A DNA stretch of 46,840 nucleotides from the NCBI GenBank assembly GCA_913041025.1, contig CAJWGQ010000005.1:1-46840 (forward strand), read 5' to 3'. The stretch is from an uncultured Gammaproteobacteria bacterium. GTDB taxonomy: Bacteria > Pseudomonadota > Gammaproteobacteria > Pseudomonadales > Azotimanducaceae_A. This document shows, piece by piece, positions 1,811-40,910 of this stretch. The translations under genes were made by a program, and so were the position numbers. The notes below the pieces were generated by a model. The model saw only the letters and a list, made by a program, of their open reading frames with translations. It had not been told where the DNA came from and made no database searches. Every line of letters begins with the position of its first letter. Positions within the stretch are counted from its first letter, which is position 1.

Positions 1811-2041
1811 TATTCCTTTTCTCCCGAGATTGTTTGTTAAGGGTCAGGTCGCGGTTTGCTAGTGTCAAGAAAATTTAAACGGCAATGCGATTGATACTAG
1901 TTGATTTGATGTTTTTATTGAGTGAAATGGACCAGTTCCGAATTGATGTAAACAGCAACAAATAGTTTCACGCTGACGCTTGTCACTTCTTTTGGATTGC
2001 ACGACAATCAATTGATCAACGCGTGGAAAAGGGAAGTAGTG

Positions 2042-3388
2042 ATGTCAGCAGAAGAAGTGCCATTACATTTGCGAGGAAACGGCCGTCCGGTCTCCGAAGA
2101 GCTAAGTTTGACGGAGCTTCAAGTGACAGGGTCTATTCCAAAAGAGCTGGATGGCCGATATGTCAGAAATGGAGCCAACCCAATTAGCGGCACCAGCGCT
2201 CACCCTTTTTTAGGCGATGGAATGGTTCATGCTCTTCGATTGCGCGATGGTAAAGCGGACTGGTATAGAAATCGATACATCAAGACTCCTTTTATAACTG
2301 ATACAAGTCTTAATGGTTTAGATCCCACCGTGATGATGAAAATGGAGTCATCGAAAGCAAATACTCACGTGGTAGGGCATGCTGGCAAAATACTAGCTTT
2401 GGAAGAGGGTCATTTTCCCTATTCGCTGGATGGTGAGATTAATACGATTGGGCCTACCGATTTCGATGGGGCGCTAAAGGGTTCATTTACCGCTCACCCG
2501 AAAATTTGTCCCCTCACGGGCGAAATGCTGGCGTTTGGTTATTCGCTTTTTGAACCTCACTTAAGATATCTAAGGGTTTCGGCTTCTGGCGAGCTAGTGC
2601 AGACCGAAACTATTACGGTAGGTGGTCCGACGATGATGCACGACTTTAATGTCACTGAAAATTACGTCATTTTTATGGATCTTCCAGCCGTCTTTGATAT
2701 GCAATTGGCGATGAGCGGGGACATGCCTATACGTTGGGACGATGACTATCCCGCGCGGCTGGGCGTAATGCCGCGCACTGGAAGTGACTCAGACATCAAT
2801 TGGTTTGAGATAAACCCTTGTTATATTTTTCATCCGATGAACTCTTACGAAGAGGAAGGTCGAATTGTTTTGGACGTTGCTCGTTACGACCATATTTGGC
2901 GGGAATCGACGATGGACTTTCCGTCCCCTGTCCTTTGGCGTTTGACTATTGATACTGCAAGCGGAACGGTTCATGAGCAACAAATTGATGACATGCCAGC
3001 TGAGTTTCCGCGGGTCGCCGATCTGGTGGTTGGGCAAAAACATCGATATGGATATATGGTCAGTCTGTCCAATAATGATAACCCCGATGATCTTGTGAAT
3101 GCATCGAGTTCTATTTTGAAGTACGACTGTAACACCGGTCAGAAGCATGAACTTGACTTGGGCAGAGGGTGTGTCGGCGGCGAGCCAGTATTTGTCCAGT
3201 CGGAAAATTTTCGGAATGAGGATGACGGTTATCTGATGACCTATGTATTCGATGCGAAAGCAAATGCCAGCCGATTTGTGATTATGGATGCGGCGACTAT
3301 GGATAATACTCCTGTCGCATCGATCGAGCTTCCCAGAATTCCTAACGGATTTCATGGTAGCTGGATTCCTACATCCGTTGCTGGCTAG
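2042..3388 (+). CDS. carotenoid oxygenase (RPE65/lignostilbene dioxygenase family)
   Basis: A 448-residue non-heme iron dioxygenase that cleaves a C=C double bond in carotenoids, apocarotenoids or stilbenes. The four iron-binding histidines of the seven-bladed propeller are visible: His152 (FTAHPK), His200 (MMHDFNVTENY), His264 (FHPMNSYEE) and His438 (FHGSW). The N-terminal markers LDGRYVRNGANP and GDGMVH are also typical. I place the start at ATG 2042, five bases after GGGAAG; a TTG at 1997 would add 15 residues that do not look like the family. Family length is normal. It diverges from the glyoxalase-like gene. Whether it cuts carotenoids or aromatic stilbenes cannot be told from these motifs. 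Confidence 0.92.
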   Translation: MSAEEVPLHLRGNGRPVSEELSLTELQVTGSIPKELDGRYVRNGANPISGTSAHPFLGDGMVHALRLRDGKADWYRNRYIKTPFITDTSLNGLDPTVMMKMESSKANTHVVGHAGKILALEEGHFPYSLDGEINTIGPTDFDGALKGSFTAHPKICPLTGEMLAFGYSLFEPHLRYLRVSASGELVQTETITVGGPTMMHDFNVTENYVIFMDLPAVFDMQLAMSGDMPIRWDDDYPARLGVMPRTGSDSDINWFEINPCYIFHPMNSYEEEGRIVLDVARYDHIWRESTMDFPSPVLWRLTIDTASGTVHEQQIDDMPAEFPRVADLVVGQKHRYGYMVSLSNNDNPDDLVNASSSILKYDCNTGQKHELDLGRGCVGGEPVFVQSENFRNEDDGYLMTYVFDAKANASRFVIMDAATMDNTPVASIELPRIPNGFHGSWIPTSVAG

Positions 3389-5758: not shown

Positions 5759-6628
5759 TCAGCGCTTAGAATTATTGAAGGTTGCTTCCATATGTTCATA
5801 GGCGAATCCATTTGGCTTGTAGAGGGAATCCTGCCTACCGAGCAGTTGGGCCATTCGGTCGCCGTGAGTATCGATCAGCCCATCGGCAATTGAAGAGTAA
5901 TCTTCAATAGGTCGACACATCAGTCTTGTGTAGGTGATATGAGCAACTACTCGTTCTCCCTCGGCGGTTCTGGGCCAGCTGGCGTGCCATGTGTTTCCAT
6001 CCCACATAGCGACTGATCCCGCTGGGCAGTTAATTGCTATGGCGCCGTCTTTTGCCGCCGCTTCCTCTTCAGTCGGGTGCCTTCTTAATTCTTTGGTACC
6101 TGGAATAATGAGAGTTGCCCCGTTTTCTTTGGTGTACTCGTCAGTCGCCCAGCAGCAAGTTAGTAGCATGTTGAACTCAGGAAGTGGAGCGGGCATCCAG
6201 TTAGCATCTGCGTGTAATCCTATTCCGGGTGAGCCCTTCGGTGAAACGCTAGTAGCGAACTGGCTAAGTAGAAACCCTCTGCCCACTGAAAATTCGGCCA
6301 TCGCCATGAGTTTAGGGTTGAGTGCTGCTTGCGCAAAAATGGGGTCCTTCCGCAGCTGCATGTTGCCTCCTCCCATCTCTCCGCCGGTCTGTTCCAGTAT
6401 TTTATTTCTTAGTGCTTCATTGAACTCGGGAGTGGCGGCATCCTCTATGACAGCCCAGCCTTCTTTTGCAAGATGCTCGCACGCCTCCGACAATCCAAGC
6501 TCATCAATTATTGGTTGAAGTTCCTCTGAGACAATCTCGGGGGGATTGGTATCGTACAAAAGCTGCGGGTTAGCGATTCCCTCTGTTGCCTCTTTTAATG
6601 TATCGGTCTCTGTTTTTACTTCTGCCAT
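5759..6628 (-). CDS. PhyH-family Fe(II)/2-oxoglutarate dioxygenase
   Basis: A 289-residue phytanoyl-CoA dioxygenase-family enzyme. The iron ligands are His139 and Asp141 (GLHADANW) and His215 (NTWHASWPR), with Arg226 eleven residues later for 2-oxoglutarate. The conserved ENGATLIIPGTKELRRHP segment lies at about 168-185. It resembles the protein at 11300 (both have D-YTKENG and NTWH), making a second paralog pair in this window. The start is ATG 6628 with GGGAGAAA upstream. It lies 105 bases downstream of the large oxidoreductase and 250 bases upstream of the aminotransferase, all on the minus strand, so joint expression is possible. Substrate unknown. Confidence 0.88.
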   Translation of the reverse strand: MAEVKTETDTLKEATEGIANPQLLYDTNPPEIVSEELQPIIDELGLSEACEHLAKEGWAVIEDAATPEFNEALRNKILEQTGGEMGGGNMQLRKDPIFAQAALNPKLMAMAEFSVGRGFLLSQFATSVSPKGSPGIGLHADANWMPAPLPEFNMLLTCCWATDEYTKENGATLIIPGTKELRRHPTEEEAAAKDGAIAINCPAGSVAMWDGNTWHASWPRTAEGERVVAHITYTRLMCRPIEDYSSIADGLIDTHGDRMAQLLGRQDSLYKPNGFAYEHMEATFNNSKR

Positions 6629-6733: not shown

Positions 6734-9700
6734 CTAGCTGGCCTTGGCAATGATATTATCTTTAGGCGCCATTGGCTGGCCGAGAAGTTCTGCTAAATTT
6801 TTCATTCGGAATTCATTCGCTTCGACCGTCTTTCTTTGTCTGACGTGACCATAACCTCTGATTAGATCTGGAACGCTCGCCAGACGAGTAGCAGCATCTA
6901 GATTTTCCTCGTTAATTTGATCAAGTATGGTTTCGATATCATTTTCATACTGGGAGATCAGTGCTCGTGCGGCTCTGGATTCGGGGGAGTTCTTGAATGG
7001 ATCCAGGATCGATCCTCGTAACCCGCGAAACTTTGCGAGCAGCTTAAAGGCCAGCATCACCCATCCACCAACCTCTGCTTTAATAATTTTTTCCGAGCCT
7101 TCGATTTTTGTGCCAAAGGGCCAGCCGCCCAGGTGAAAGGAGAGTTTGAGTTTTCCATCAAACGTCTCTTTCAAGGCTTGTTTGAAGTTAGGGTCGGCAT
7201 AGAGACGAGCAACTTCCCACTGATCTTTGTGAGCGAGGACCTTGAAGTAATATTTTGCTACTTCTTCTGTTAAGTCTTCAGAGCTTGAGAAAAGCGCTTC
7301 TTTGTCGCGCACCCGATTGACGAGCGTGAGGTATTTATCTGCTAGCGCCTCATTTGAGTGCTCAACGAGAAACTTCGCTCGACGCTCTATCTGCTCATCT
7401 AGCGTTTCACTGACCGCTTCTTTGAACGAGTTATCCTGGATCAAATTCAAAGCAGCTTTCAGGTCGTGTTGAGCGTAGCGGCCTAGCTCAAAGGCGATTC
7501 TGTTCATTTCGATCGCGACGCCATTGAGCTCGAGGGCTCTCATTATTGCTTCGTGGCTCACTGGAATGCCGCCCATCTGCCAGGCGGCGCCCAGCAACAG
7601 AGTGTTTGCGTAGACCGCATCTCCTAATATTCGTTCCGCTAGCACGATGCTATCCAGTTTCAGAAGGTTGTTTTCGAGGGCGGTATCGAGTCGGCTAATC
7701 AGCAGAGTCTCGTCAATGTTCCAGTTCGGATCCCTGGAGAAATCTGCCGTGGGGGTGAGGTGTGTTGATACAACTCCGCGACTTTTTCCTGGCACCAGCG
7801 TAGCTAATACCTCGTCACCGGCAGAGACTATGACATCGGCCCCAATCAGGGTATCGGCTTCCCCGTTGGCAATTCGCGTGGAGGTTAACTGGTCGGCATT
7901 AGCTGAGACTTTTATATGCGAGAGCACTGCTCCATATTTTTGGGCAAGACCGGTCACGTCAAGATTGGAGCTGTATAAGCCATCGGCATGAGCCGCAACT
8001 GCTAGGGTTTGACCGATTGTAACAACGCCGGTACCCCCTATTCCCGCTACCAGGACAGACCACGATCCGTCGATTTTTGGTAGTTCAGGCAACGGGATGT
8101 TGGGTAGATCAGGAAGTTCATCTCCTTGGTCATGACTCTTAAGCTTAGCGCCTTCAATAGTTATAAAGCTTGGACAAAAGCCTTCGACGCAGGAAAAATC
8201 TTTGTTGCACGAAGATTGATTTATCTGGCGCTTTCTTCCGAATTCGGTTTCCAGCGGTTCTATCGCCATGCAGTTGGAAACCGTTCCGCAATCCCCGCAG
8301 CCCTCGCAGACTGTTGGATGTATGAACACGCGTTTATCGGGGTCATGCCACTGTCCGCGTTTTCGAAGTCGACGACGCTCTGTCGCACAGGGTTGCTCGT
8401 AAATAATGACTGAGACATTGTTGTAGTCACGAAAGTCCCGCTGTACGACTTCAAGCTGAGTTCGTTCGTGGATAGTCAAGGAATTTGGAAACTCATGGTC
8501 TGAAAATTTTTCGGGTTCGTCGCTTACCAATGCCATTTTTCGGACGCCTTCTGCATCAAGCTCCGAGACAATTTGATCGATCGAAAGCTCCCCCTCGATA
8601 GCCTGGCCCCCGGTCATAGAGACAAAACCATTGACCAAGAGTTTGTAGGTGATTGGCAGGTTGGCGGCAACAGCTGCTCGAATCGCCATGAAGCCCGAGT
8701 GATAATAGGTCCCGTCTCCCATATTCGCAAAGACATGCTTTTCTTCAGTGAAGGGCTGCTGTCCAATCCACATTGCACCTTCGCCTCCCATGTGGGAAAT
8801 GGTGTTTGTTTTTGTGGGATCAAGCATCATAGCCATACCGTGACAGCCGATTCCTGCAAGCGCTCTGCTTCCTTCGATGACCTGGGTGGATCGGCCATGC
8901 GGGCAACCCGCGCAGAAAGAGGGACTTCTTATAGGTGCGGGATAACCATCGATTGGCTTGTCCGGAAAGTTGGGCTGAGCCACTCCGCATTCTGGAGATA
9001 CTCGCACCGCCGTCTTGCTAAGGATTCGCACAATTGTTGTCGGATCAATCTCGCCACTGTTGGGGAAGGCTGGCTCGCCTCGATTGGTACTATAGGTCTG
9101 ACCTCCAAAAAACTTACCGACGATGTTAGGGGCTTCATCCTCTCCGTAAAGAATGGACTTTATTTGGTCTTCGAGTAGAGGTCTTTTTTCTTCGACCACG
9201 AGTATGGTGTCAAGGCCTGCTGCAAAATCACGAATCACTACGTCGTCTAAAGGCCAAATCATGCCCACCTTCAGGATACGCAACCCTAGGCTACCCAGTT
9301 CCGACTCTGCGACACCGAGAGCTCTGAGAGCCTGCATCAGATCCTGGTAGGCTTTGCCAGCTGCGACGATTCCTAGTTTTGCCTCCCTGCTGCTTCGGAC
9401 TATTTCGTTTAGATTATTTTCTCGTGCGTAGACGAGCGCCTCATCGATTCGCTTTTCGTAAAGCACGTGCTCCTGCTCTACGAAGGGAGTAAAAGTCTGA
9501 ATGCTTAAGCCTTCCCGTGATTCAGGCATCGATATATTCGGCGACTCAGGCGACACATAGAGAGAACCGCCTCCCTCGATGACATCAGTGACAAGCTTCA
9601 TGCCGCATACCAGTCCGCTGTGACGGCTTAGTGCTATTCCGTGTAAGCCGAAGTCGAGGACCTCTTGAGCATTGGAAGGGGCGAGCAAGGGAATCCCGAC

Positions 9701-10219
9701 AGAAAGAAAATTGAAATCGGAATAACAGGTCAGAGTTGAAGACTTAGCTCCATGGTCGTCTCCCACTAGTAGCAAGCTACCGCCAAGAGGAGAGGTGCCC
9801 GCCATATTGGCGTGTCTTAACGCGTCCATTGACCGGTCCATCCCTGGAGCCTTTCCATACCAAATAGAGAATACACCGTCGACAGTAGCGCCTGGGAATG
9901 TGCCTACATACTGAGAGCCCCACGCGGCGGTTGCCGCAATGTCTTCATTGACACCTGGCTTGAATACGACGTTATAGTGTTCAAGGGTGTCCGATGCGTT
10001 CCATAATTCCATGTCGTATCGGCCCAGGGGTGAGCCTCGATAGCCAGAAATAAAGCCGGCCGTGTTTAGATTATTTGAGATGTCTCTAATGCGTTGCTGT
10101 ATGGGGAGCCGCACGAGCGCTTGCATGCCGGTCATGTAAACCCAGCCTTCATCCTGGGTCAATCGATCACCAAGGACCATATCCAGTCGCTTGTCATCTG
10201 TACTGGCTGACTCGCTCAT
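6734..10219 (-). CDS. fused indolepyruvate ferredoxin oxidoreductase (IorA-IorB type)
   Basis: A 1161-residue cytosolic enzyme oxidatively decarboxylating aryl or branched 2-oxoacids to acyl-CoA and passing electrons to ferredoxin. In order: an alpha-type pyrimidine-binding domain from about 25 (GYRGSPLGRYD), CAGCPH at 436-441, GIGCHG near 457, the thiamine diphosphate motif GDGTYYHSG at 501-509 with a downstream Asn, a cysteine-rich Fe-S segment at 638-682 (CEGCGDCGxxxxC, then CxxxxxC and CxxxxxC), then the gamma domain from about 720 starting GIGGTGVVT. This is the long proteobacterial fusion of both subunits. I choose ATG 10219 because GGAG lies six bases before it; a GTG at 10231 would add four residues. 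It diverges from the PhyH at 10393. The substrate could be an arylpyruvate, which fits aromatic amino acid breakdown. Confidence 0.92.
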   Translation of the reverse strand: MSESASTDDKRLDMVLGDRLTQDEGWVYMTGMQALVRLPIQQRIRDISNNLNTAGFISGYRGSPLGRYDMELWNASDTLEHYNVVFKPGVNEDIAATAAWGSQYVGTFPGATVDGVFSIWYGKAPGMDRSMDALRHANMAGTSPLGGSLLLVGDDHGAKSSTLTCYSDFNFLSVGIPLLAPSNAQEVLDFGLHGIALSRHSGLVCGMKLVTDVIEGGGSLYVSPESPNISMPESREGLSIQTFTPFVEQEHVLYEKRIDEALVYARENNLNEIVRSSREAKLGIVAAGKAYQDLMQALRALGVAESELGSLGLRILKVGMIWPLDDVVIRDFAAGLDTILVVEEKRPLLEDQIKSILYGEDEAPNIVGKFFGGQTYSTNRGEPAFPNSGEIDPTTIVRILSKTAVRVSPECGVAQPNFPDKPIDGYPAPIRSPSFCAGCPHGRSTQVIEGSRALAGIGCHGMAMMLDPTKTNTISHMGGEGAMWIGQQPFTEEKHVFANMGDGTYYHSGFMAIRAAVAANLPITYKLLVNGFVSMTGGQAIEGELSIDQIVSELDAEGVRKMALVSDEPEKFSDHEFPNSLTIHERTQLEVVQRDFRDYNNVSVIIYEQPCATERRRLRKRGQWHDPDKRVFIHPTVCEGCGDCGTVSNCMAIEPLETEFGRKRQINQSSCNKDFSCVEGFCPSFITIEGAKLKSHDQGDELPDLPNIPLPELPKIDGSWSVLVAGIGGTGVVTIGQTLAVAAHADGLYSSNLDVTGLAQKYGAVLSHIKVSANADQLTSTRIANGEADTLIGADVIVSAGDEVLATLVPGKSRGVVSTHLTPTADFSRDPNWNIDETLLISRLDTALENNLLKLDSIVLAERILGDAVYANTLLLGAAWQMGGIPVSHEAIMRALELNGVAIEMNRIAFELGRYAQHDLKAALNLIQDNSFKEAVSETLDEQIERRAKFLVEHSNEALADKYLTLVNRVRDKEALFSSSEDLTEEVAKYYFKVLAHKDQWEVARLYADPNFKQALKETFDGKLKLSFHLGGWPFGTKIEGSEKIIKAEVGGWVMLAFKLLAKFRGLRGSILDPFKNSPESRAARALISQYENDIETILDQINEENLDAATRLASVPDLIRGYGHVRQRKTVEANEFRMKNLAELLGQPMAPKDNIIAKAS

Positions 10220-10392
10220 CTGACTCTCCACTCTCTAAAACTCATTATTAGTATTACCAGAATCGGACTTGCGTGTCGTCAAAAAATGTTATGCCTTGGT
10301 GCAGAATGGCCACCAAAAGAAGTTTGAACAGGTTTGTCAAAGCTGGTTATTGAGAGTTAACTATAGGAGCAAAAAAAAGAGGAGGGGCTTTG

Positions 10393-11232
10393 ATGACCAT
10401 ACGCAGAATAAGTGCCGAGTCAGGTCTAGAAGAGATTTTGAATATTCTCGAAGAGGACGGAGGTCTTATTCTGGAAGGGTTGTATCCAACGCGTCTGATC
10501 GACTCAATCCGTGATGCCATTATTTTAGCTTCAGAAAAGTTCAAACCAGGAGAAGCTACTCAGGGTTTGGGAGCTCCCGGGAATGCCTTTGTGGGTAAGA
10601 ATACGATCCGGTTTTCCAGTTTAGGTAAGATCACGTCGGATTATTTCGAGATGCTCGACAATGAGGTGTTTCGATCTATTGCGGATGCCTTGTTATTGCC
10701 CCATTGCGCGTCTTATTGGGTAAACACGGCTCAGGCAATGTTAATCGGTCCAAACTCAGAAGCTCAGCCATTGCATCGTGATTGCCTCAATTGGCCTCAG
10801 GTGGTCGTTCCCAGTTGGCCTGAGGGTCCCGAGTTGACTGTAAGTTCCATGATCGCGTTAGAGGCGATCACGGAAGAGATCGGTGCGACGCGAGTGATTC
10901 CAGGAAGCCATCGCTGGTTGGATCTGGGACAGCGCGTACATGCTGATCTGACTGAAGCGGCAGAGATGGGGCCGGGAGATGCGCTGGTTTATACGGGAAA
11001 GCTGGTTCACGGAGGCGGGGCGAACATGACCTCCGACCGTTGGCGCCGGGCTATGCATCTTAGCTATGTTGTCGGATGGTTAACTCCGGAAGAATCCAGT
11101 CCTATTGATTACTCTGACGAAGATCTGAAAGGGCAAAGCGAGGCCGTAAAAAGAGTTCTCGGTCACCGCTCATATATTTCCGATTCTCCGTCGGCCGGGG
11201 GTCTTTGGCTTCGTCACGCGAAAGGGATTTAA
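10393..11232 (+). CDS. PhyH-family Fe(II)/2-oxoglutarate dioxygenase
   Basis: A 279-residue phytanoyl-CoA dioxygenase-family enzyme. Metal ligands are His128 and Asp130 (PLHRDCLNW) and His206 (LVHGGGANM); Arg219 in RWRRAMHLSY could bind 2-oxoglutarate. The middle segment GATRVIPGSHRW at about 164-175 matches the paralog at 329. A TTG directly precedes the ATG, but GGAGGGG at 10381-10387 points to ATG 10393. The next PhyH gene follows 67 bases downstream on the same strand, so the two are probably cotranscribed, and both diverge from the oxidoreductase. Substrate unknown. Confidence 0.88.
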   Translation: MTIRRISAESGLEEILNILEEDGGLILEGLYPTRLIDSIRDAIILASEKFKPGEATQGLGAPGNAFVGKNTIRFSSLGKITSDYFEMLDNEVFRSIADALLLPHCASYWVNTAQAMLIGPNSEAQPLHRDCLNWPQVVVPSWPEGPELTVSSMIALEAITEEIGATRVIPGSHRWLDLGQRVHADLTEAAEMGPGDALVYTGKLVHGGGANMTSDRWRRAMHLSYVVGWLTPEESSPIDYSDEDLKGQSEAVKRVLGHRSYISDSPSAGGLWLRHAKGI

Positions 11233-11299: not shown

Positions 11300-12253
11300 T
11301 TGGATCCCTTAGCTGAACGTGTAACAGAGGACATAGAAAGTCTCGGCTTAAAAAAGTACGTCATAGAATTGGACGAGAACGGGTACACCGTCTTGCCACC
11401 CGATGTTGCTTGCCCGAATGGGTTGAGGGATCGGTTGCTGGACGCGTGTCTTGATGTGGCTGAAAGCCGAAATGGAGAGCGACCTGATCTTCAGACGGAT
11501 CGGGTATATTTGCCTGGTCATGCTGACCAGTTTGAAGGTGCTTTGGGGGCTGAACACGGCGATTCACCCATAGGAGACATGATGCAATCTCTTGTTGTCG
11601 AAGGAGAGATTTTTGAAGAGGCTCTCATGAATCCGGTTCTGTTGGCGCTGAGCGCTTACTTGACGGGTTATAGTTCTGTCTTACTAACCATGGCTTGCTT
11701 TATAAAAGGGCCGAACAAAACAGAATTGCCATTGCACTGTGATGCGATGGGGCCTTCTCCGTTATCGTTAATTTCCACAGAGTGTAATTTAACTTATGCC
11801 CTCACTGACTATACGAAGGAGAACGGTTGTCTAGCTGTGGTTCCTGAAAGTCATAAGCTTTGTCGACAGCCCAGAGGCGAAGAGCGGCTGGTAGCCAAAA
11901 ATCCATACGCGATTCCAGTCGAGTGTCCTGCTGGATCGCTCGTCTGCTGGCATGGAAACACCTGGCATGGAGCGTATAGTCGGCAAGCAAGCGGTCTGCG
12001 GGTGAGTCTGGTCATAGACTTTGTCCGAAAGCATATCCGCACAGCTGAGCACCTCACCGAATATATGCCCGAAGAAGTCCTGGCAAGGAATTCGGCTCGA
12101 TTTGCTGTGATAACGCATCAGGCCATGGCGCCAACCATACCCGATCAGAGTAAAAATGATCAAAATATGGCTCGAGCAAAACGCGTTCTGGAAGAATATA
12201 ACCAGGAGCTAGGATTTGATTTACAAAAATATGAGTGGAGCCCCTACGCTTAG
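11300..12253 (+). CDS. PhyH-family Fe(II)/2-oxoglutarate dioxygenase, TTG start
   Basis: A 317-residue phytanoyl-CoA dioxygenase-family enzyme with His146 and Asp148 (PLHCDAMG), His223 (NTWHGAYSR) and Arg234. The segment YTKENGCLAVVPESHKL at about 171-187 is like the paralog at 5759. No ATG fits the family N terminus. TTG 11300 has GGGAGA six bases upstream, so I accept TTG as the start. It has a longer N-terminal region (about 60 residues before the conserved part) than the 10393 protein. It follows that gene and converges on the alpha/beta hydrolase. Substrate unknown. Confidence 0.86.
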   Translation: MDPLAERVTEDIESLGLKKYVIELDENGYTVLPPDVACPNGLRDRLLDACLDVAESRNGERPDLQTDRVYLPGHADQFEGALGAEHGDSPIGDMMQSLVVEGEIFEEALMNPVLLALSAYLTGYSSVLLTMACFIKGPNKTELPLHCDAMGPSPLSLISTECNLTYALTDYTKENGCLAVVPESHKLCRQPRGEERLVAKNPYAIPVECPAGSLVCWHGNTWHGAYSRQASGLRVSLVIDFVRKHIRTAEHLTEYMPEEVLARNSARFAVITHQAMAPTIPDQSKNDQNMARAKRVLEEYNQELGFDLQKYEWSPYA

Positions 12254-13042: not shown

Positions 13043-13187
13043 GACGGTCTCTTTTCGAAACTGAAATTTATGCCACAAAAACGGGTCACAAACCAGATGA
13101 ATCTTGTAGGTGTAGATATTTTTGTTAAGACTAGACTTGTGAAAAGAGAGATTTAGAATCAAAAGCAACAGGTTGAGGGGTAGAGCG

Positions 13188-14069
13188 ATGTCGATAGAGG
13201 TGCAACCTTTGACTCCAGCATTTGGAGCGGAAATCAAAGGTGTTGATTTAGTTTCGTGTTCAGCGGCTGAATTCGATGGGATTCTCGAGATTTTTTCCGA
13301 ATATGGGGTGGTCTTTTTTCGCGATCAGCAGAGGCTGAGTGAGAAGGAGCATATTGACCTAGCAAGTCGCTTTGGAGAGATACACATCCACCCTGCGGCG
13401 CGGGGGAGAGAGGATGCTTATCCCGGTTTGCTCAAGATGAAAACGAACAAGGAGTCTACTGTTGCTGCGGGGAACAGGTGGCATTCTGATGTGTCCTGTG
13501 ATGAATTTCCTCCTTATGCGAGTATCTTGCAACTCCACGAAACCCCGTCATCTGGCGGAGACACGCTGTTTGCTAGTCTTTGCGCCGCGTACGAGGCGCT
13601 GTCTGATCCTATGAAAACGATGCTTGATGGACTGACTGCACTACATTCCGGTGAGGAGCCATTTCGCCACCTATTTAAGTTCCAAAACCATCAGGCAGGG
13701 CAGGGGTGGCCCGAGAATGATCACCCTATTGTTCGAGAGCACGTGTCTTCAGGCCGCCCTGCGCTATTCATTGACCGCGAATTTACGAAGAAAATTAATG
13801 AGTTACCTAAAGACGAAGGTAAGGCTCTGCTTGAGTTCTTGTTTGGTCACACAGAGAGAGTCGATTTTCAATGTCGTTTCCAGTGGACTCCCAACGCCAT
13901 CGCAATTTGGGACAATCGTTGTGTGCTTCATCATGCTCTTTGGGATTACTGGCCAGAGCAAAGAACGGGTAGCAGGGTGACGACGGTTGGAGAAAAACCA
14001 GTAGCCTGGCGATTATCAGATCACAGTAAAGTTCAAAAGGAACGATCTTCGATCAGGCTGACCGCGTAG
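13188..14069 (+). CDS. TauD/TfdA-family Fe(II)/2-oxoglutarate dioxygenase
   Basis: A 293-residue dioxygenase of the taurine/2,4-D dioxygenase family, using Fe(II), 2-oxoglutarate and O2. Conserved features: the start IEVQPLTPAFGAEIKGVDL, VVFFRDQ at 41-47, RFGEIHIHP at 61-69, the metal pair His99-x-Asp101 in RWHSDVS, SSGGDTLFAS at 121-130, the distal His248 in DNRCVLHHA, and Arg263 in SRVTTVGEKP. ATG 13188 follows GAGGGG by seven bases; an upstream TTG at 13173 is less likely. Members often cleave sulfonates, aryloxyacids or hydroxylate amino acids. The exact substrate is not evident. It diverges from the hydrolase and converges on the methyltransferase. Confidence 0.92.
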   Translation: MSIEVQPLTPAFGAEIKGVDLVSCSAAEFDGILEIFSEYGVVFFRDQQRLSEKEHIDLASRFGEIHIHPAARGREDAYPGLLKMKTNKESTVAAGNRWHSDVSCDEFPPYASILQLHETPSSGGDTLFASLCAAYEALSDPMKTMLDGLTALHSGEEPFRHLFKFQNHQAGQGWPENDHPIVREHVSSGRPALFIDREFTKKINELPKDEGKALLEFLFGHTERVDFQCRFQWTPNAIAIWDNRCVLHHALWDYWPEQRTGSRVTTVGEKPVAWRLSDHSKVQKERSSIRLTA

Positions 14070-14146: not shown

Positions 14147-15148
14147 TTATGGTTTAAGTCCGGATACACGAGCCAGAATGCCCGGTACAAACTCGTTGAC
14201 CTCTATTTGAATAAAACCGGCTCGTTCAAAGTAGCCCATGCAGTCCGCGCGTGTGTGGGTAAGCCCGGTGCTGTTTGACATCACTTCCAGCAGCCCCCAG
14301 ATTGCTGCGTCGGTCGGTCCTGCCCGGTCGTCGTCGAGCATCTCGCCGATTAGGTGCATCTCTCCCCCAGGTACTAACGCATCGAAGGCTTTTTGAATAA
14401 CTAAAGAAACGATCTCTCGATTGTATTGAGGTAAATTGCTAGCCATTAGCGCGACGTCGCATCCTTCAGGGAATGTGTCCTCCGTGAAGTCGCCTCCCTG
14501 CGTGGAGACACGATCATCTACCTGGTTTTTCTTGATGAAATCCTTTGTGACTTCAACGACTGGTGGCAGATCGAATACGATCGCCTGCAGCTGTTCATTT
14601 GCCTGCGCCGAAACGATCGAATAGGCGCCCGAGCCGCCTCCAAGATCCATCATTTTTGTGCGATTGCTCAGATCAACTTGTTTGACGAATCGTCTGCCTG
14701 CACCAAACCCTATGGATGAAGTGCCCTCATGGTATTTTCTGGCTTCTTCAACCGTCATGGATTCGTAGTTTCCTATGACTCGCGGCTCATTCAGATTCTT
14801 AAGTTTTTCGGTGAGATTGCCCCAGTTTTTCCATCCGGGTCTCAAAAAGGAAAGCCACGGACCAGCGTAGCTTTTCTCGTCTTTGACTAGGAATCGTTGC
14901 ACATCATCTGCATTTTTGTAGTGATCTTTTTCCCAGTGGATCAAAGCCGCGGTCGCGCACATGGTCATTAATCGTTCAGCGTTGAGCTGCGTGATCCCGG
15001 CAGCTTCCGCAAACAGGCCGACCGTATTGTTGCCTTGGCTGATTTCAGTAAATAGATTCAGATCTATCGCTGCGAACAAAGAGGCGGACTCGATAAACGC
15101 TCGACTCATTTCCTGAAGTCTTACCGTATCTAGTTTTTTTTCAGCCAT
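14147..15148 (-). CDS. SAM-dependent methyltransferase, O-methyltransferase (Methyltransf_2) type
   Basis: A 333-residue methyltransferase. The first 90 residues form a winged-helix dimerisation domain as in plant and bacterial small-molecule O-methyltransferases, with a 90-residue linker. The SAM-binding motif I is MMDLGGGSGAYS (Asp168 to Gly174), followed by IVFDLPPVVE and the VPGGEMHLIGE strand. The ATG at 15148 gives the usual family N terminus; no good ribosome-binding site precedes it, which would fit translational coupling to the gene ending 22 bases upstream. That upstream gene is the candidate selenoprotein at 15171-15965, so the two probably form one unit. The acceptor (O, N, S or another atom) is not readable from sequence. 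Confidence 0.85.
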   Translation of the reverse strand: MAEKKLDTVRLQEMSRAFIESASLFAAIDLNLFTEISQGNNTVGLFAEAAGITQLNAERLMTMCATAALIHWEKDHYKNADDVQRFLVKDEKSYAGPWLSFLRPGWKNWGNLTEKLKNLNEPRVIGNYESMTVEEARKYHEGTSSIGFGAGRRFVKQVDLSNRTKMMDLGGGSGAYSIVSAQANEQLQAIVFDLPPVVEVTKDFIKKNQVDDRVSTQGGDFTEDTFPEGCDVALMASNLPQYNREIVSLVIQKAFDALVPGGEMHLIGEMLDDDRAGPTDAAIWGLLEVMSNSTGLTHTRADCMGYFERAGFIQIEVNEFVPGILARVSGLKP

Positions 15149-15170: not shown

Positions 15171-15965
15171 TTAACTCGCGGATTTTTTTCGACCTGTGAA
15201 ATACTCAAAGCTACTCGGCCACGATTCTTCCCAGTCAATCAAAACCCCACCAGTTTTCACTTCTTCGATCATTTGTAAGCATCGCCTGAGAATGCGAGTT
15301 TGCATTTCTATGTCATCAGCAGCGCCGAAATTGTTACCCATGGGATAGTTCATGAACAGACTTCTCGGTGGTTTGACTTGTTCGGTGAGATCCCTGCCTG
15401 TCGAGAGGCAGACGGTGGCAATACCAGCTTGTTCGACCACTCGGCATACCAAACCCACGGTTTGGTGATCGAGGGGTCAGGCAGGCGCTGCGATTAGAAT
15501 ATCGACGCCATCCTCATTTAATTTCTCGACAAACGCAGGTGCCGATTCATTTAGTATTTTGCTTCGGTTGTAGATACGCCCCATGAATCCACTCCACAGT
15601 CGATGAGCTACTCCCCCTATCTCTCCAGACTTTTCTAGTTCTCGTAATCGATCGATGGGAAAAACACAGTTGAGATCTGAGTCGGCGTCTGTGTGGTCGT
15701 AGTAACTGTCATTGATATTGAAGTCATTACTGTCCGCATCACTGGGTACTTCGTCCAAACGATGATCGTTTCTCGCGTCGGGGTCAAAATCCGGCATGGA
15801 GCACTGGGAGACGCCACCAGACGTCAACAGGCTCACAGTGCAGTCTTTAAGGGACCTGTTTAGTCTCGTTAAAGGCGCGGATTTATTAACCGTCCACTCA
15901 TAGGGCGGAAAGCCCATTGAGCCGTAGTGTTTGTTCAGTTCGGCGACATAGCTAATAGGTTGCAC
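15171..15965 (-). CDS. GrdB/PrdB-like selenoprotein with in-frame TGA (Sec163)
   Basis: One gene interrupted by a TGA at 15477-15479, which I read as selenocysteine. The part before it (162 residues) has the hallmarks of short proteins related to the selenoprotein B subunit of glycine/sarcosine/betaine/proline reductases: VSLLTSGGV at 44-52, SYYDHTDADSDLNCVFPIDRL at 87-107 (broken here by SDLN), GEIGGVAHR and the DGVDILIAAPA strand. The next 101 residues continue in the same frame: UPLDHQTVGLVCRV, then AGIATVCLSTGRDL. The family has its redox Cys or Sec exactly at this point. A SECIS-like hairpin follows. The first partner position is Asp (UPLD) where a second Cys might be expected. GTG 15965 has GGGAG seven bases upstream; a TTG at 15971 is an alternative. 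Reaction unknown. A pseudogene is the alternative reading. Confidence 0.8.
15448..15466 (-). promoter_or_regulatory. candidate bacterial SECIS hairpin
   Basis: On the coding strand, ten bases after the in-frame TGA, ACCAAACC (15466-15459) is followed by GTG and then GGTTTGGT (15455-15448). This is a perfect 8-bp stem with a 3-base loop, or a 7-bp stem with loop CGUGG. Bacterial SECIS elements, which recruit SelB, sit directly downstream of the UGA, with a spacer near 11 bases and a GU in the apical loop, as known for E. coli fdhF. Both features match. The hairpin lies inside coding sequence (HQTVGLV), as required. Confidence 0.75.
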
Positions 15966-16133
15966 GTCCAATCTCCCTCTGGTGTTTAATAACTTCTCTG
16001 AGCCAGAATGAGTCTCAGTGACTTAACTTGTCAACTCTTCTTTCAGATTAGGTTTATTACTTTGGATTATATAGGGTTAGCTTTGTGATTTGATAAGGGG
16101 GTATGCTGTTGAGCATCATAGGAGAGAAAAGGT

Positions 16134-17528
16134 ATGTCTGATCAACTTTGGCAATACTCGGCATCTGAGCTCGCGAAAATGATTCGAAACAAGGATGTGT
16201 CGAGTGAGGAAGTGGTCCAAGATCACTTGCAGCGCATAGGCGAGGTTAATCCTAAGCTGAACTCGATTACGATCGTGCTCGAAGAGTCATCCCTGGCAGA
16301 GGCGAGAAAGGCAGACCAAAGCGAGCCTGTTGGACCCTTGCACGGGGTTCCTGTCACAGTAAAAGAAAATATCGATCTGTTTGGGACTCCGACCACCTCG
16401 GGTATTCCTGCTGGTGCAGAGCTGATGCCCGCGGCTGATGCGCCCGTTGTCAAAAGGTTGAAAGATGCAGGAGCTATTCCTATCGGTCGAACGAATCTTC
16501 CGGAATTGGGTCTAAGAATTGATACCGATAACCCACTAAGAGGGCGGACACTCAATCCCTGGGATCAGACGAGGACTGCCGGCGGATCCAGTGGCGGTGA
16601 GGCGTCGGCGATTGCCAGCGGGATGAGCCCGCTCGGTTTGGGTAACGACATAGGTGGGTCGGTTCGCAACCCCGCGTTCTGTTGTGGTATCAGTTCCCTT
16701 AAACCTTCGGCAGGGCGAATTCCCAGGGCCAGCACAATAGCGCCAGTGGAGAGAGGTTTTGCTGATCAATGGATGGCAGTTGACGGCCCGATGGCTAGGC
16801 GTGTCGAGGATTTGAGGGTAGCTTACGAAGTGCTTAGCGGAAGGGAGATATTAGACCCGATGACCGCGGACGTGCCGCTTTATGGGCCAGACTTTCCAAA
16901 GAGAGCGGCCATTGTTAAAGAAGTACCCGGCGTGGAGCTGCCCCAGTCTGCACTGGGTGCGATTGATAAAGTCCAGAGCGTTTTGCGATCGGCCGGTTGG
17001 GAAACGCAGGAAGTCCAACCCCCCGAACTTGAGCGTGTTCATGAAATATGGGCGCACGTACTAAGTGCTAACTTCAAGCCGCTGGTCGATGATCCAGAAT
17101 TATTTCCAAAGTTGATGTCCAAAGAGCTTTTAGCGATGTGGGACTATATTTTTGAACGTTATGATCCAAACAAAAAGTCCATTCTTGAATTATTCACGGA
17201 AAGAGAAAGGCTCAGTGTTTTGTGGGAAAAATTCTTCGTGGAGTATCCTGTCGTCGTGGGGCCTGTATGGACCGATATTCAGTTTGAAAACGGTGCAGAT
17301 ATTGCCAGTAGCGCTGGGTATCCTATCACCGTGGATCTGTTGAGGTTTATTTCTCCTGCTAACTTGTTGGGTTTGCCGTCAACTGCCCTAACCGTTGGAG
17401 AGACCGATGGTTTACCTGTCGGAGTCCAGTTTTATGCGGCGAAATGGCGAGATGATATCTCCTTGACCGCTGCTTCAACTGTAGAAAAAGAGCTCGGTAT
17501 TCTGTGTCCTATTGATCCCAGGTTTTGA
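16134..17528 (+). CDS. amidase-signature family hydrolase
   Basis: A 464-residue cytosolic amidase with the Ser-cisSer-Lys triad: Lys77 (VTVKENIDL), Ser152 (GGSSGGEAS) and nucleophile Ser176 (DIGGSVRNPA). The spacing of 99 and 24 residues matches the family exactly. It hydrolyses a carboxamide to acid and ammonia; substrates range from aryl amides to fatty amides. The ATG is preceded by GGAGAGAAAAGG. It diverges from the candidate selenoprotein across 168 bases. A second, exported amidase is encoded at 32508. Not GatA: no GatB or GatC neighbours, and the C-terminal part is different and short. Confidence 0.92.
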   Translation: MSDQLWQYSASELAKMIRNKDVSSEEVVQDHLQRIGEVNPKLNSITIVLEESSLAEARKADQSEPVGPLHGVPVTVKENIDLFGTPTTSGIPAGAELMPAADAPVVKRLKDAGAIPIGRTNLPELGLRIDTDNPLRGRTLNPWDQTRTAGGSSGGEASAIASGMSPLGLGNDIGGSVRNPAFCCGISSLKPSAGRIPRASTIAPVERGFADQWMAVDGPMARRVEDLRVAYEVLSGREILDPMTADVPLYGPDFPKRAAIVKEVPGVELPQSALGAIDKVQSVLRSAGWETQEVQPPELERVHEIWAHVLSANFKPLVDDPELFPKLMSKELLAMWDYIFERYDPNKKSILELFTERERLSVLWEKFFVEYPVVVGPVWTDIQFENGADIASSAGYPITVDLLRFISPANLLGLPSTALTVGETDGLPVGVQFYAAKWRDDISLTAASTVEKELGILCPIDPRF

Positions 17529-19150: not shown

Positions 19151-20212
19151 CTAATTGAAGGTCGAAATGACCTCTTCGACAGCCCTTTGCGCCAGGCCTG
19201 CGATCTCTTCGTCGGGCGCAGCGAGATCAGGGCTCCCAATGATAATGAAACGATCGATACCCAGATCAACCAGCTCGGAAAGGCGATCAATACAGTAAGA
19301 CGGTGGGCCATAGATGCCGAACTCATGGGCGAAATCGCTGGTGATAAAATCATTCCCAAGCTGCCCGTGTTGCTTCATGTTGTATGAGCTGTGAATGTTC
19401 GTGAGAATGTCTCGAGTCGCCTCGCTGACAGGACCAATCGGTTTGCCATGCATGGCTGCAAAGCGAGCTTGGCTTGCGATTGACGGAGCGGCCATCTTCC
19501 ATGCGATTTCACCATCGTCATGTACCACCATATTAATGTAGGCAGATATCGCTGTACTGTTCCGAGAGCTTTTTCTTTGGACCTCCTTGATTTGATCAAT
19601 GCCCCACTTGATTCTTGCTGCGCTTGAACCGAGCATTAAGTCAACTCGGTCAGCGTGTAAAGCCGCCATGGAAATCACTCTCGGTCCGGTGGCCGCGACG
19701 CCAACAGGGACTTTGTTCTGATGGAGTGGCCATTGAATTCGGCTGGTATCGGGCTGGTCGCCCAGGTTTAAAGAATCCACGTTTGAATCCTCCGCAAATT
19801 CGACTTGCTCCCCTCGCAAGTAACGTTGTAGGTCGACCAAGTAGGTCTCGAGCATTGATGCAGAGCTGGGAGAATAGCCAAGGTGAGCCAGCGAGGAGTC
19901 ACCTCTCCCGATACCTAAGTAGGCTCTACCCCCACTGACTGTTTGTAAAGTAGCCATGGCAGAAGCTGTAACCGCTGCGTGGCGAGTCATTGGGTTAGTT
20001 ACTCCGGTACCCAGTTTTAGAGTGCGCGTTACGTTTGCAGCGGCAGTCAAGCTAACGTAGACCTCCGGTGCAAGATTCTGGGTGTCGAAAAAAAGAAGAC
20101 CATCAAATCCAGCCTCTTCATATAACTTCGCGTAGGAAAAAGTAGGGTCAATGTCCGCGACTTCATGCCAAAAATGGGTTGGCCTGGCGTGCCAAAACTC
20201 AACTGATTTCAT
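19151..20212 (-). CDS. LLM-class (luciferase-like) flavin-dependent oxidoreductase
   Basis: A 353-residue TIM-barrel enzyme of the bacterial luciferase-like group, using reduced FMN or F420. It shows EEAGFDGLLFFDTQNL at about 32-47, RTLKLGTGVTNPMTRH at about 63-78 and VSGGRAYLGIGRGDSSLAHLG at about 92-112. These are the marker segments of the group, which includes F420-dependent reductases and FMN monooxygenases. The gene starts at ATG 20212, with only a poor ribosome-binding site. It diverges from the MaoC-like gene 171 bases away. Three LLM enzymes of different subtypes occur in this window. Cofactor and substrate are not readable. Confidence 0.88.
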   Translation of the reverse strand: MKSVEFWHARPTHFWHEVADIDPTFSYAKLYEEAGFDGLLFFDTQNLAPEVYVSLTAAANVTRTLKLGTGVTNPMTRHAAVTASAMATLQTVSGGRAYLGIGRGDSSLAHLGYSPSSASMLETYLVDLQRYLRGEQVEFAEDSNVDSLNLGDQPDTSRIQWPLHQNKVPVGVAATGPRVISMAALHADRVDLMLGSSAARIKWGIDQIKEVQRKSSRNSTAISAYINMVVHDDGEIAWKMAAPSIASQARFAAMHGKPIGPVSEATRDILTNIHSSYNMKQHGQLGNDFITSDFAHEFGIYGPPSYCIDRLSELVDLGIDRFIIIGSPDLAAPDEEIAGLAQRAVEEVISTFN

Positions 20213-21797: not shown

Positions 21798-23255
21798 CTA
21801 GGCTCCAGCCCAGTAGGAGTGAGTGCCAACGCAAATGCGCTGCGGAAGAAGTACGGATGCGATCGGCCCATAAGAGATGTCTTGGGCATCGAAAATTACA
21901 CATTCGGACTTGTTGTTGTTCATGTCCGTGGTGAAGGTTAAAACGTAGCCATCGCTTTCATTAACCGAATTCCCACTCGGGGCCATAGGGCTTTCACTGG
22001 CATAGACACCCTCGGGAAACTTATATTCCTGGCGTTCGCCCGTTTGAACATTTAAGCGTAAAAGACCGTCAAATAGAAACCAACCAGGTTTGGCCGTCGC
22101 GGCCCAGGTATATTGATAGGGTCGGCCGGCAACGCGAGGGTTAATCATGCCAAACTCCGAGATTCCGTCTTCTAAGGGCCCTTCTGTGACTGTCCCGGTT
22201 TTCAGGTTGAACTTCCAGCGATAGGCGTGCGCGCCGATTGCGTTGATGTCCAGCATTTCGAATGGGGTTAAACTTTCTGGAAGCTCTTTGGTTCGTTTTC
22301 CTTTTCTGGGGTCTTGGCTGTAGCCGTCGAGAACAATTTCATCGCCATCTTCATAAGCATTTATCCAATGCAGCACGTAAGTCGGTTTTGCCTCAAACCA
22401 AATGACGTCTTCAGGTTTGCCTTTTCTCGGAACCACTGCAAAACGACTGGGAAGTTCATGAAAAAAGCGGACCGCGTGCGCGCCGTGTTTAAGAGCCTCA
22501 GGATCCCAGAAGAGCGGCAGATCATTGAGAATCGCGTAATTTTCCGTAAAAGCCATGTCATGAGGAAGCCTGGGGCCAGGTAATTCAATAGGAATATGGT
22601 GGACAAGGTTTCGGTTTTTATCGACAACCCCATAGTGCATGTAGGGGAACTCTTTACCGTAGTTGAAAAACAACATTTCTCCATTTGATTCGTCGACCTT
22701 CGTGTGCGCGGACACACCCCAATTTTCGGGTAGATCTTCTAACCAGTTGGCCTTGCCAAGTGGTTCCAGAGTACGAGGATCGTGTTCGTAGATTTCACCG
22801 CATTGATAAAAACTGGTTGCTGCTACCCCTCCATGAATCACGACGTCGGTGCTGGAGCTGTCCTTTAAATTGGTTCTTGCTCCCCAGCCCTCTCTCACTG
22901 ACATATCAGGTTTTTCGCGCAACCCGGCCCAGAGCGGTTGGCCTGCTTGTTCTTCTTCTATCAGACCCTGCGTCTGTATAAAACGGTTATGGTATTCACA
23001 CTGGCCGCGATCAAAAGTGATCGAGTGCAACATCCCGTCTCCGTCAAAGGGATGATAGCGACCGAGTGCTTCGCGTACCGGATTTTCGGTATTGCGAATG
23101 TAGGTGCCATTCAGGTCCTCTGGGATAGATCCTTTCACCACCGGCGCAAGGTCGTCATATTCTCGCATATTGGGCTGCCAGGGACCCGTTCTGTATGGGT
23201 GTGAATCTCCTTCGGGTAGCCTGTTTGATTCTTCATTGACCAGTGTCGCTGACAT
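21798..23255 (-). CDS. carotenoid oxygenase (RPE65/lignostilbene dioxygenase family)
   Basis: A 485-residue non-heme iron dioxygenase, the second of this family in the window. The four iron histidines are His184 (VSAHTKVD), His232 (LPHDMAFTENY), His296 (LHWINAYE) and His479 (GTHSYW). The typical start markers LNGTYIRNTENPV and DGDGMLHSI are present. It differs from the protein at 2042 in the His-flanking segments (LHWINAYE against FHPMNSYEE), which points to separate subfamilies rather than a recent duplication. GGAGAGACAATG gives the start. It lies downstream of an enolase-superfamily gene and upstream of a membrane protein on the same strand. Substrate unknown; a stilbene or an apocarotenoid fits. 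Confidence 0.92.
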   Translation of the reverse strand: MSATLVNEESNRLPEGDSHPYRTGPWQPNMREYDDLAPVVKGSIPEDLNGTYIRNTENPVREALGRYHPFDGDGMLHSITFDRGQCEYHNRFIQTQGLIEEEQAGQPLWAGLREKPDMSVREGWGARTNLKDSSSTDVVIHGGVAATSFYQCGEIYEHDPRTLEPLGKANWLEDLPENWGVSAHTKVDESNGEMLFFNYGKEFPYMHYGVVDKNRNLVHHIPIELPGPRLPHDMAFTENYAILNDLPLFWDPEALKHGAHAVRFFHELPSRFAVVPRKGKPEDVIWFEAKPTYVLHWINAYEDGDEIVLDGYSQDPRKGKRTKELPESLTPFEMLDINAIGAHAYRWKFNLKTGTVTEGPLEDGISEFGMINPRVAGRPYQYTWAATAKPGWFLFDGLLRLNVQTGERQEYKFPEGVYASESPMAPSGNSVNESDGYVLTFTTDMNNNKSECVIFDAQDISYGPIASVLLPQRICVGTHSYWAGA

Positions 23256-34773: not shown

Positions 34774-36036
34774 TTATCCGGCCGCCATATTCTTAGGACG
34801 CGATGCAGGGACAATATCGATCTGACTATCGGTAAGCGCAGGGCGGGTCCGGCGTCTTGCGAGAGCGGCCTCGATATAAGGAGCTAACCTTTCGGCCTTT
34901 TCTGCTTCTTTTTTGTCTCTTCCCTCTGCGAATTCGTCGTACACCTCTGCGTTGAATTTCTCCAGACTTTCGCAAATGTGTTCATGTTTGTTTTTGCCTC
35001 CTTGTTGGAGAAATATCACTTGATCGACGCCTGAATCCGCAAATCCTTGCATGTGTTTACGAAATTCTGCGGGTGTGCCGATCCCTGGCGATCTGGCCAT
35101 GCTTCGGTCGGGCTGAACGTCACCGCCACCATAAGCAGTATCGGTTACCTTTTGGCCCGACTCACGCGCTTTTTTTCTCGCCTCGTAATTATCCCAGAGC
35201 TTACTTCTGCCAGGGAGAACATCGTCTGTGACCAGCGCGCCGATAGCGTATTCGAAGAATCTAAAGCCATCTTCTCCCCGTCGAGATGCTTCGTCATGGT
35301 CGTCATGAAGTGAGAATGCTGAAACCATCGCAATGTTTGCATTGACTGAATGACCAAGCGGTACGCACTCTTCAGACATGATTGTATCGTAATAGGTTTG
35401 AGTCCATGTCTTGGCTTCCTCACGGTCTAAAAAACTGAAGGCTAAGACACCAAGACCATTTTGGGCTGCGACTTTGATGGTGTCCCGATTGGTACAGGCC
35501 ATCCACATAGGTGGATGAGGTTTTTGTATAGGCTTAGGTAGCACGTTACGACATGGGAGTGACCAGTCTTCACACTCATATCCAGGGTAAGGCTCCATCA
35601 CCATCATATCGGAAATTTCTCGTGCGGCCTCAAGACACATGTCACGCTTTCGCTTAGCCTCTATTCCGAATCCTCCCAGCTCTAGTCTAGTAGCACCTTC
35701 ACCTATTCCAAACTGTGCTCTTCCATTGGACACCAGATCCAGCATGCCCACGGCCTCTGCAGTTCTGGCAGGGTGGTTATAATTAGAGATCACCTGGCGG
35801 ATTCCAAACCCTATGTTGATCTTTTGGGTCTTTGCTGCAATCGCGGACAGGAATACCTCGCTAGCTGAGCAATGCGAGTACTCCTCCAGGAAGTGATGTT
35901 CAACTGACCAGGCATAGTCAATGCCCAGTTTGTCTCCTAGAACGCATTGGTCAATGGCGTCGTGAACCAGGTTGAGCTCACTGTCCTCCTTCCAGGGTTT
36001 AGGTAGCTGAAGTTCATACAACATCCCAAATCTCAT
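34774..36036 (-). CDS. LLM-class (luciferase-like) flavin-dependent monooxygenase
   Basis: A 420-residue luciferase-like TIM-barrel enzyme. The markers are KLGIDYAWSVEHHFLEEYSHC (broken to 20 as IDYAWSVEHHF), IGFGIRQVISNYNHPARTAE, LVSNGRAQFGIGEGATRLELGGFG (only parts listed) and HPPMWMACTNRDT. The EHHF segment is as in bacterial luciferase-type FMN monooxygenases. ATG 36036 has GGGAG seven bases upstream. It leads a minus-strand group with a PPOX protein, an amidase and a GPH transporter. It faces away from the Nudix gene, with its promoter probably in the 94-base gap. A long C-terminal tail of about 45 residues is charged. Substrate unknown. Confidence 0.88.
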   Translation of the reverse strand: MRFGMLYELQLPKPWKEDSELNLVHDAIDQCVLGDKLGIDYAWSVEHHFLEEYSHCSASEVFLSAIAAKTQKINIGFGIRQVISNYNHPARTAEAVGMLDLVSNGRAQFGIGEGATRLELGGFGIEAKRKRDMCLEAAREISDMMVMEPYPGYECEDWSLPCRNVLPKPIQKPHPPMWMACTNRDTIKVAAQNGLGVLAFSFLDREEAKTWTQTYYDTIMSEECVPLGHSVNANIAMVSAFSLHDDHDEASRRGEDGFRFFEYAIGALVTDDVLPGRSKLWDNYEARKKARESGQKVTDTAYGGGDVQPDRSMARSPGIGTPAEFRKHMQGFADSGVDQVIFLQQGGKNKHEHICESLEKFNAEVYDEFAEGRDKKEAEKAERLAPYIEAALARRRTRPALTDSQIDIVPASRPKNMAAG

Positions 36037-40897: not shown

Positions 40898-40910
40898 GCG
40901 GAGAGATTTG

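Follow-up and report, generated by a model that had tools for sequence, protein, structure and literature searches.

A UGA-interrupted gene of an uncultured gammaproteobacterium very probably encodes a PrdB/GrdB-like selenoprotein of a UxxD branch

Classical PrdB and GrdB proteins are partnered by pyruvoyl subunits of the PF09338 family. Titles cited in the available parts of two papers pair D-proline reductase, PrdA and GrdE with a pyruvoyl subunit (PMC1088965, PMC10838667). According to the accessible portions of the marine surveys, PrdB-type proteins rank with the most frequent marine selenoproteins and have been reported since 2005 (PMC1088965, PMC2398784). The Sargasso Sea set comprises 42 PrdB sequences with the motif UxxC (PMC1088965), 235 PrdB-type sequences were counted in GOS (PMC2398784), and a later GOS analysis assigned 6.4% of selenoprotein genes to this type (PMC9402790), again in the parts of these papers at hand. 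A 2026 inventory (PMC13188914), as far as its available text goes, gives UxxC for both PrdB and GrdB, does not list UxxD in its Table 1 and counts each Sec motif as a subfamily of its own. Among open-licence full texts, taken without supplements, we found nothing containing both 'UxxD' and 'selenocysteine', and a search by title or start of abstract returned no report of genomes with about ten Sec paralogs.

The window analyzed here, a stretch of 46,840 nucleotides, comes from an uncultured gammaproteobacterium. On its minus strand a PrdB/GrdB-like gene runs from 15965 to 15171, with a single in-frame TGA at 15479–15477 and then the final TAA, whereas the plus strand of 15171–15965 contains many stops. 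The gene has the following features:

15171..15965, minus strand: probable selenoprotein gene, PrdB/GrdB-like (PF07355); 264 codons plus stop, GTG start
15477..15479, minus strand: UGA codon, here read as selenocysteine; residue 163 from the GTG, 165 in P0001 numbering
15973..15979, minus strand: likely Shine-Dalgarno sequence GAGGGAG, 7 nt before the GTG, by direct reading of the sequence

The preliminary description had joined two same-frame ORFs across one TGA at 15477 without naming a strand, had seen no other frame damage and had expected a Sec reading to restore 264 residues. All of this holds on the minus strand. The ORFs at 15477–15971 (164 aa) and 15171–15458 (95 aa, beginning with GTG) share one frame, which reads through with this TGA as the only interruption before the TAA, and, counted from the GTG start at 15965, the protein has 264 residues and Sec at position 163. 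An alternative upstream TTG at 15971 would give 266 residues with Sec at 165; the P0001 numbering counts from this TTG and is therefore two higher than numbering from the GTG. We favor the GTG because short homologs, described below, are mostly 162 residues long. An open frame around a TGA is no evidence by itself, since 89 TGA codons in the window have 30 open codons on both sides. The case for Sec rests instead on conservation of the codon, the hairpin downstream of it and the Sec machinery of relatives. We estimate a probability of about 0.93 that the gene encodes one 264-residue selenoprotein in which the in-frame UGA is the Sec codon. A search of a plasmid collection and an Rfam scan of the window both gave no match.

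The landmarks of GrdB/PrdB-type proteins that had been recognized earlier stand as far as superfamily membership is concerned, with a PF07355 (GRDB) score of 35.2 bits against a gathering cut-off of 22, but the relation is distant. The best NCBIfam match, TIGR04483 (PrdB), scores 149.9 bits over residues 32–243, below the cut-off of 300. TIGR01918 (GrdB) gives 42.8 bits, below its cut-off of 65.45, and the UxxCxxC motif is absent. The window motif is UPLD, with Asp where the UxxC of PrdB has its partner Cys. Given the sub-cut-off PrdB score and UPLD, we regard the window protein, by sequence and motif, as a distant relative of PrdB and GrdB and not as a D-proline reductase. The pyruvoyl subunit family PF09338 was detected in none of the eight relatives' genomes, in a search that was positive in no control genome, and in none of the 30 window ORFs scanned. 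That the search is able to detect the family follows from its presence in 2 of 27 further genomes (G682 and G715); in G682 it lies on contig C421, about 0.7 kb from a TGA-bearing match.

Two residues set the window protein and its closest relatives apart:

15468..15470, minus strand: Asp codon at Sec+3 (residue 166; 168 in P0001), Cys in PrdB/GrdB; Asp in 84/84 aligned proteins
15666..15668, minus strand: codon of an invariant Cys (residue 100; 102 in P0001), possibly the resolving thiol in a new position; Cys in 84/84 aligned proteins

The alignment of 84 consists of the window protein (P0001) and 83 of 94 full-length homologs. Most relatives carry UPVC, UPNC, UPLC or UGxC, and Asp at Sec+3 is found in 16 of 99 loci rows, counted after dropping identical peptides and matches off the site. 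The Cys at residue 100 is present in all 16 xxD rows versus 9 of 82 xxC rows, one row of the latter being unreadable. In a tree of 118 rows with unknown root, 37 xxD rows lie on one side of one branch (SH-aLRT 100, the only support measure used, with no bootstrap), and this side contains both Sec and Cys forms. The tree included 20 of the 94 Cys proteins; matches below 150 residues were left out, as were repeats and poor fragments (L065, L077, L108, L110, L015, L131, L101 and L070). Since Cys100 is invariant and tied to the xxD rows, it may stand in for the Cys that the motif has lost. The structure model is confident (pLDDT 95.1) and places Sec at the start of helix 166–181, just after strand 158–162. 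A sequence search of solved structures found no relative at E≤0.001 and Foldseek with the model found no match at the same threshold; the best VIA-align hit (Z 8.1; LacI core, 148 residues, rmsd 5.1) is middling and unspecific by its own notes.

The genomic surroundings include two neighbors:

14147..15148, minus strand: O-methyltransferase gene (Methyltransf_2), probably co-transcribed; 22-nt gap if the ATG at 15148 is used
13173..14069, plus strand: TauD/TfdA-family 2-oxoglutarate dioxygenase gene, a recurrent neighbor

The methyltransferase ORF is listed from a TTG at 15238. A Methyltransf_2 gene also adjoins the selenoprotein gene in loci L001 and L031, and in L003 it lies upstream with a 4-base overlap. 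TauD is at most one to two genes away in L001, L002, L004, L006, L007, L107 and L111. Neither is seen near the gene in L005, L009, L109, L112 and L113, and the sequence shown for loci L107–L114 reaches no further than about 1.5 kb to either side; in L008 and L114 the sequence ends inside the gene or just behind it. More generally, genes for oxidative catabolism are densely packed in the window. Oxygenase-type genes are numerous in these 47 kb, with four PhyH (329–1132, 5759–6628, 10390–11232 and 11300–12253), two carotenoid-oxygenase-like RPE65 (1997–3388 and 21798–23255), three luciferase-like monooxygenases (19151–20212, 34774–36036 and 40866–41960) and the one TauD. The minus strand at 6734–10231 encodes a 1165-aa protein with POR, TPP-binding and DUF6537 domains, which we take to be indolepyruvate ferredoxin oxidoreductase-like.

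How might such a protein work? The product would be a stand-alone member of the GrdB/PrdB superfamily, belonging to the UxxD branch with Asp at Sec+3 and the invariant Cys at 100. Its selenolate would attack a carbon with a leaving group in a small organic substrate and reductively cleave the carbon–heteroatom bond; Cys100 or an external thiol would then regenerate the selenolate, and the reaction could form part of a catabolic set that includes the neighboring methyltransferase and/or the TauD dioxygenase. The proposed selenolate attack draws on GrdB/PrdB chemistry and on the proposal made for FarB, as given in the available part of that paper (PMC10838667). We hold this assignment tentatively and rate it equal to a plain thiol-redox role, in which the selenoprotein would be a general thiol/disulfide or peroxide reductase and no carbon–heteroatom cleaver. 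The latter gains from the many uncharacterized UxxC/CxxU selenoproteins that, in the accessible part of the 2026 inventory, are given redox roles (PMC13188914), and from the search of the first eight relatives, in which no pyruvoyl subunit was found. It is countered by the absence of the UxxC partner Cys and by the recurrence of catabolic neighbors (methyltransferase, TauD and SDR); among the fold-search rows shown there is also no thioredoxin-fold chain, which excludes nothing. Like carbon–heteroatom cleavage, it is possible without being our expectation. A wider scenario, which we consider doubtful, is that in the UxxD clade the resolving Cys left UxxC, Asp replaced it and Cys100 took its task, the clade being one of many GrdB/PrdB-like selenoenzymes that do without a pyruvoyl subunit, with as many as about ten in one genome, by which proteobacteria rich in oxidative catabolism genes would reductively break carbon–heteroatom bonds in dissolved organic compounds.

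We now turn to the reading of the codon itself. Protein homologs were compared for the best 120 of 795. All 94 full-length proteins among these 120 (at least 205 residues) have Cys at the TGA column, and the remaining 26 (162 to 175 residues) stop exactly one residue before it, as would be expected of proteins called up to a stop codon. Truncated public records among these 26 include P0004, P0035, P0049, P0101, P0108 and P0118, all cut off before the catalytic residue; three of them (P0101, P0108 and P0118) carry PrdB or selenoprotein B names. The scan of species genomes gave 32 loci, of which 24 were translated and all 32 were read at the site. A stop occupies the site in 30 of the 32, and it is TGA in every locus whose codon was printed. 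These counts bear out the earlier proposal that the TGA sits where homologs carry Sec or Cys. The UxxD motif is common to 10 of the 32 loci, with TGA in each of the ten; together with five loci from an alphaproteobacterial order and the window, this makes 16 non-identical Sec UxxD loci. The two remaining loci of the scan deviate at the site. A Delta-type relative (L012:10001–10663) has GGA (Gly) at the Sec codon and an intact hairpin (z −2.8); since the hairpin is still there, a recent change or an assembly error is possible. An acidobacterial relative (L029:1980–2669) has DxxS, neither Sec nor Cys.

If the UGA were a true stop, the product would be a 162-residue protein and the second part a separate or dead frame. 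Database proteins of about 162 residues do end at this codon, and a GTG-started ORF of 95 aa follows. However, what comes after the TGA is homologous to the C-terminal region of the full-length Cys proteins, and the constraint on it is similar. Between the window and L001, dN/dS is 0.049 before the TGA and 0.071 after it, compared with 0.048 and 0.023 for neighboring genes; dS is near saturation in this comparison, and versus L031 it is not computable. Purifying selection therefore acts on both sides of the TGA, including the downstream part, where the preliminary description had named it as a check. Moreover, replacement by Cys at the site and a hairpin kept mainly in TGA forms are not expected of a true stop. 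On these grounds we ruled this reading out, and it retains only a very small chance of being correct.

The hairpin in question lies directly behind the codon:

15448..15466, minus strand: predicted SECIS upper hairpin ACCAAACC-GUG-GGUUUGGU; 8/8 pairs in 16/16 Sec loci, one compensated pair
15440..15473, minus strand: predicted wider hairpin, extended by a lower stem of 4 bp (CUCG/CGAG) and an internal loop; from folds of the window sequence

It begins 10 bases after the UGA, and its loop begins 18 nt after the UGA. Whereas the hairpin is fully paired (8/8) in all 16 Sec UxxD loci, 6 of 8 pairs form in the Cys ortholog L113. One pair is A–U in 6 and G–C in 8 of 14 distinct sequences and always matched; six of the eight are constant, and covariation is limited to one pair, as only this one shows two-sided change. 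In the covariation test, three measures (paired cells, cells with both sides changed, covariation score) exceeded all 500 shuffles, while the two-sided pair count and the further pair types, two of the five measures, did not. The codons of the hairpin are constrained by the protein too, and 8/8 pairing was reached by 4.9% of random synonymous recodings of a single sequence. Compared with codon shuffles, fold z was below −1, a lenient line, in 13 of 13 SecxxD sequences, 54 of 72 SecxxC sequences (18 fail) and 1 of 8 Cys forms, with means of −2.4, −1.7 and about 0, respectively. This test left out sequences with N (L001), with fewer than 50 bases (L114) or identical to another (L006). A predicted SECIS-like hairpin directly 3′ of the UGA is thus present in the window.

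A sequencing error at the TGA, or a pseudogene, could produce the same interrupted frame. Single-base errors can create an in-frame TGA, open TGA frames are as frequent in the window as noted above, and the Gly codon of L012 demonstrates that the site codon can differ among close relatives. Yet another 15 non-identical UxxD loci share the TGA at this codon, the parts before and after it both show low dN/dS, and 108 of 118 matches in one order have exactly one TGA. The recurrence in 15 loci and the low dN/dS led us to rule out this explanation, whose odds are slimmer still than those of a true stop.

Next, we considered whether relatives are equipped for selenocysteine insertion. Using ARAGORN on the best matches, tRNA-Sec was found in seven of eight relatives' genomes, with anticodon TCA in these seven. 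We relied on the ARAGORN call because the Rfam tRNA-Sec model, positive in 8 of 8 relatives, was also positive in 14 of 14 controls and is therefore unspecific. Over the cut-off, SelB was present in 7, SelA in 7 and SelD in 5 of these 8 genomes, which are mostly draft assemblies. The genome of the closest relative (G001, with locus L001) has tRNA-Sec, SelA and SelB; it, and the genomes of L003 and L008, yielded no SelD over the cut-off. The L009 genome gave no tRNA-Sec, its best match being a tRNA-Ser, and the L003 genome has selA pieces only and no selB over the cut-off. In three alphaproteobacterial relatives (L057, L058 and L059) the selD gene has one in-frame TGA, and SelD is thus probably a selenoprotein there. 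Reassignment of UGA to another amino acid such as Trp, although in-frame TGA is also found in organisms with altered codes, is ruled out as next to impossible by the neighboring amidase ORF (16134–17528) ending in TGA, by Cys and not Trp at the homologous position in the 94 full-length proteins of the best 120 of 795, and by the tRNA-Sec (TCA) of the relatives.

The link to the machinery can also be seen at the level of whole orders. In the order of G001, homologs occur in 27 of 390 genomes, with 45 matches, 41 having exactly one TGA and four none. Here selA was found in 24 of 25 homolog-bearing genomes versus 3 of 19 without a homolog, G445 (fragment match) and G001 having been left out of the 27 and G283 out of the 20 genomes listed as lacking a homolog; three of the 25 (G629, G504 and G634) have only the Cys form or weak or fragment matches. 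G580 has TGA copies but no selA match. In the alphaproteobacterial order of G007, homologs occur in 25 of 43 genomes, and of the 118 matches 108 have a single TGA, one has a TAG in addition to its TGA, and nine lack a TGA, four of the nine being fragments off the site. With G007 excluded, selA was found in 20 of 21 TGA-bearing genomes, in 0 of 3 with the Cys form only and in 0 of 18 without a homolog, one of the 18 (G698) having a 43.7-bit fragment. The exception among TGA-bearing genomes is G706, with TGA copies but no selA match. Codon conservation, hairpin, selection and machinery in relatives are computational results, short of the protein itself. From them we infer that selenium is inserted at the UGA in this organism, where SelB-tRNA-Sec, guided by the hairpin, would place selenocysteine at the codon.

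Some genomes carry many such genes. G682 has 12 matches, ten with one TGA and two fragments off the site; one TGA is found in all eight copies of G007, in all six of G001 and in five of the six of G002, the sixth having TGA and TAG. Expansion of GrdB/PrdB-like selenoprotein genes is also seen in G683, G684 and G705. The gene studied here is of a known kind; what is new is the UxxD branch, along with the many Sec copies for which no pyruvoyl partner was detected. For twenty years marine PrdB-type selenoproteins have been counted under the proline reductase name. For most of them 'D-proline reductase' is probably a misnomer, since the partner was not found in 33 of 35 genomes searched (mostly drafts), the motif differs in the UxxD branch and single genomes hold six or more TGA copies. 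In 26 of the best 120 of 795 homologs the record ends ahead of the active-site residue, so that annotation and function prediction overlook these proteins. Furthermore, the swap of Asp for Cys, tied to an invariant second Cys, offers a specific, testable idea on selenolate regeneration.

How, then, does the window protein compare with the described systems? PrdB (TIGR04483) is its best NCBIfam match and a Sec family with UxxC in Table 1 of the inventory, as far as seen in the available text (PMC13188914), but the window protein reaches half of the 300-bit cut-off, has UPLD and belongs with relatives in whose eight genomes no PF09338 was found. With GrdB (PF07355, TIGR01918), the selenoprotein B of glycine, sarcosine and betaine reductases, it shares a passing PF07355 score, but it is about 264 residues long compared with 431–435 positions in GrdB-type models and is without UxxCxxC. 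The fluoroacetate reductase FarB of Cloacibacillus porcorum, as described in the accessible part of the report, is likewise a GrdB-type selenoprotein for which attack on a carbon–heteroatom bond is proposed, and its strain has eight predicted Sec grdB genes (PMC10838667). In contrast to the window protein, FarB comes from a rumen anaerobe and works beside a GrdE-like subunit, the type not found in 33 of the 35 genomes searched here. Finally, the marine 'PrdB' selenoproteins of the Sargasso Sea and GOS (PMC1088965, PMC2398784), judged from the available parts of both surveys, very likely belong to the same superfamily and come from the same kind of habitat; the Sargasso sequences were reported with UxxC, whereas the branch represented by the window has UxxD.
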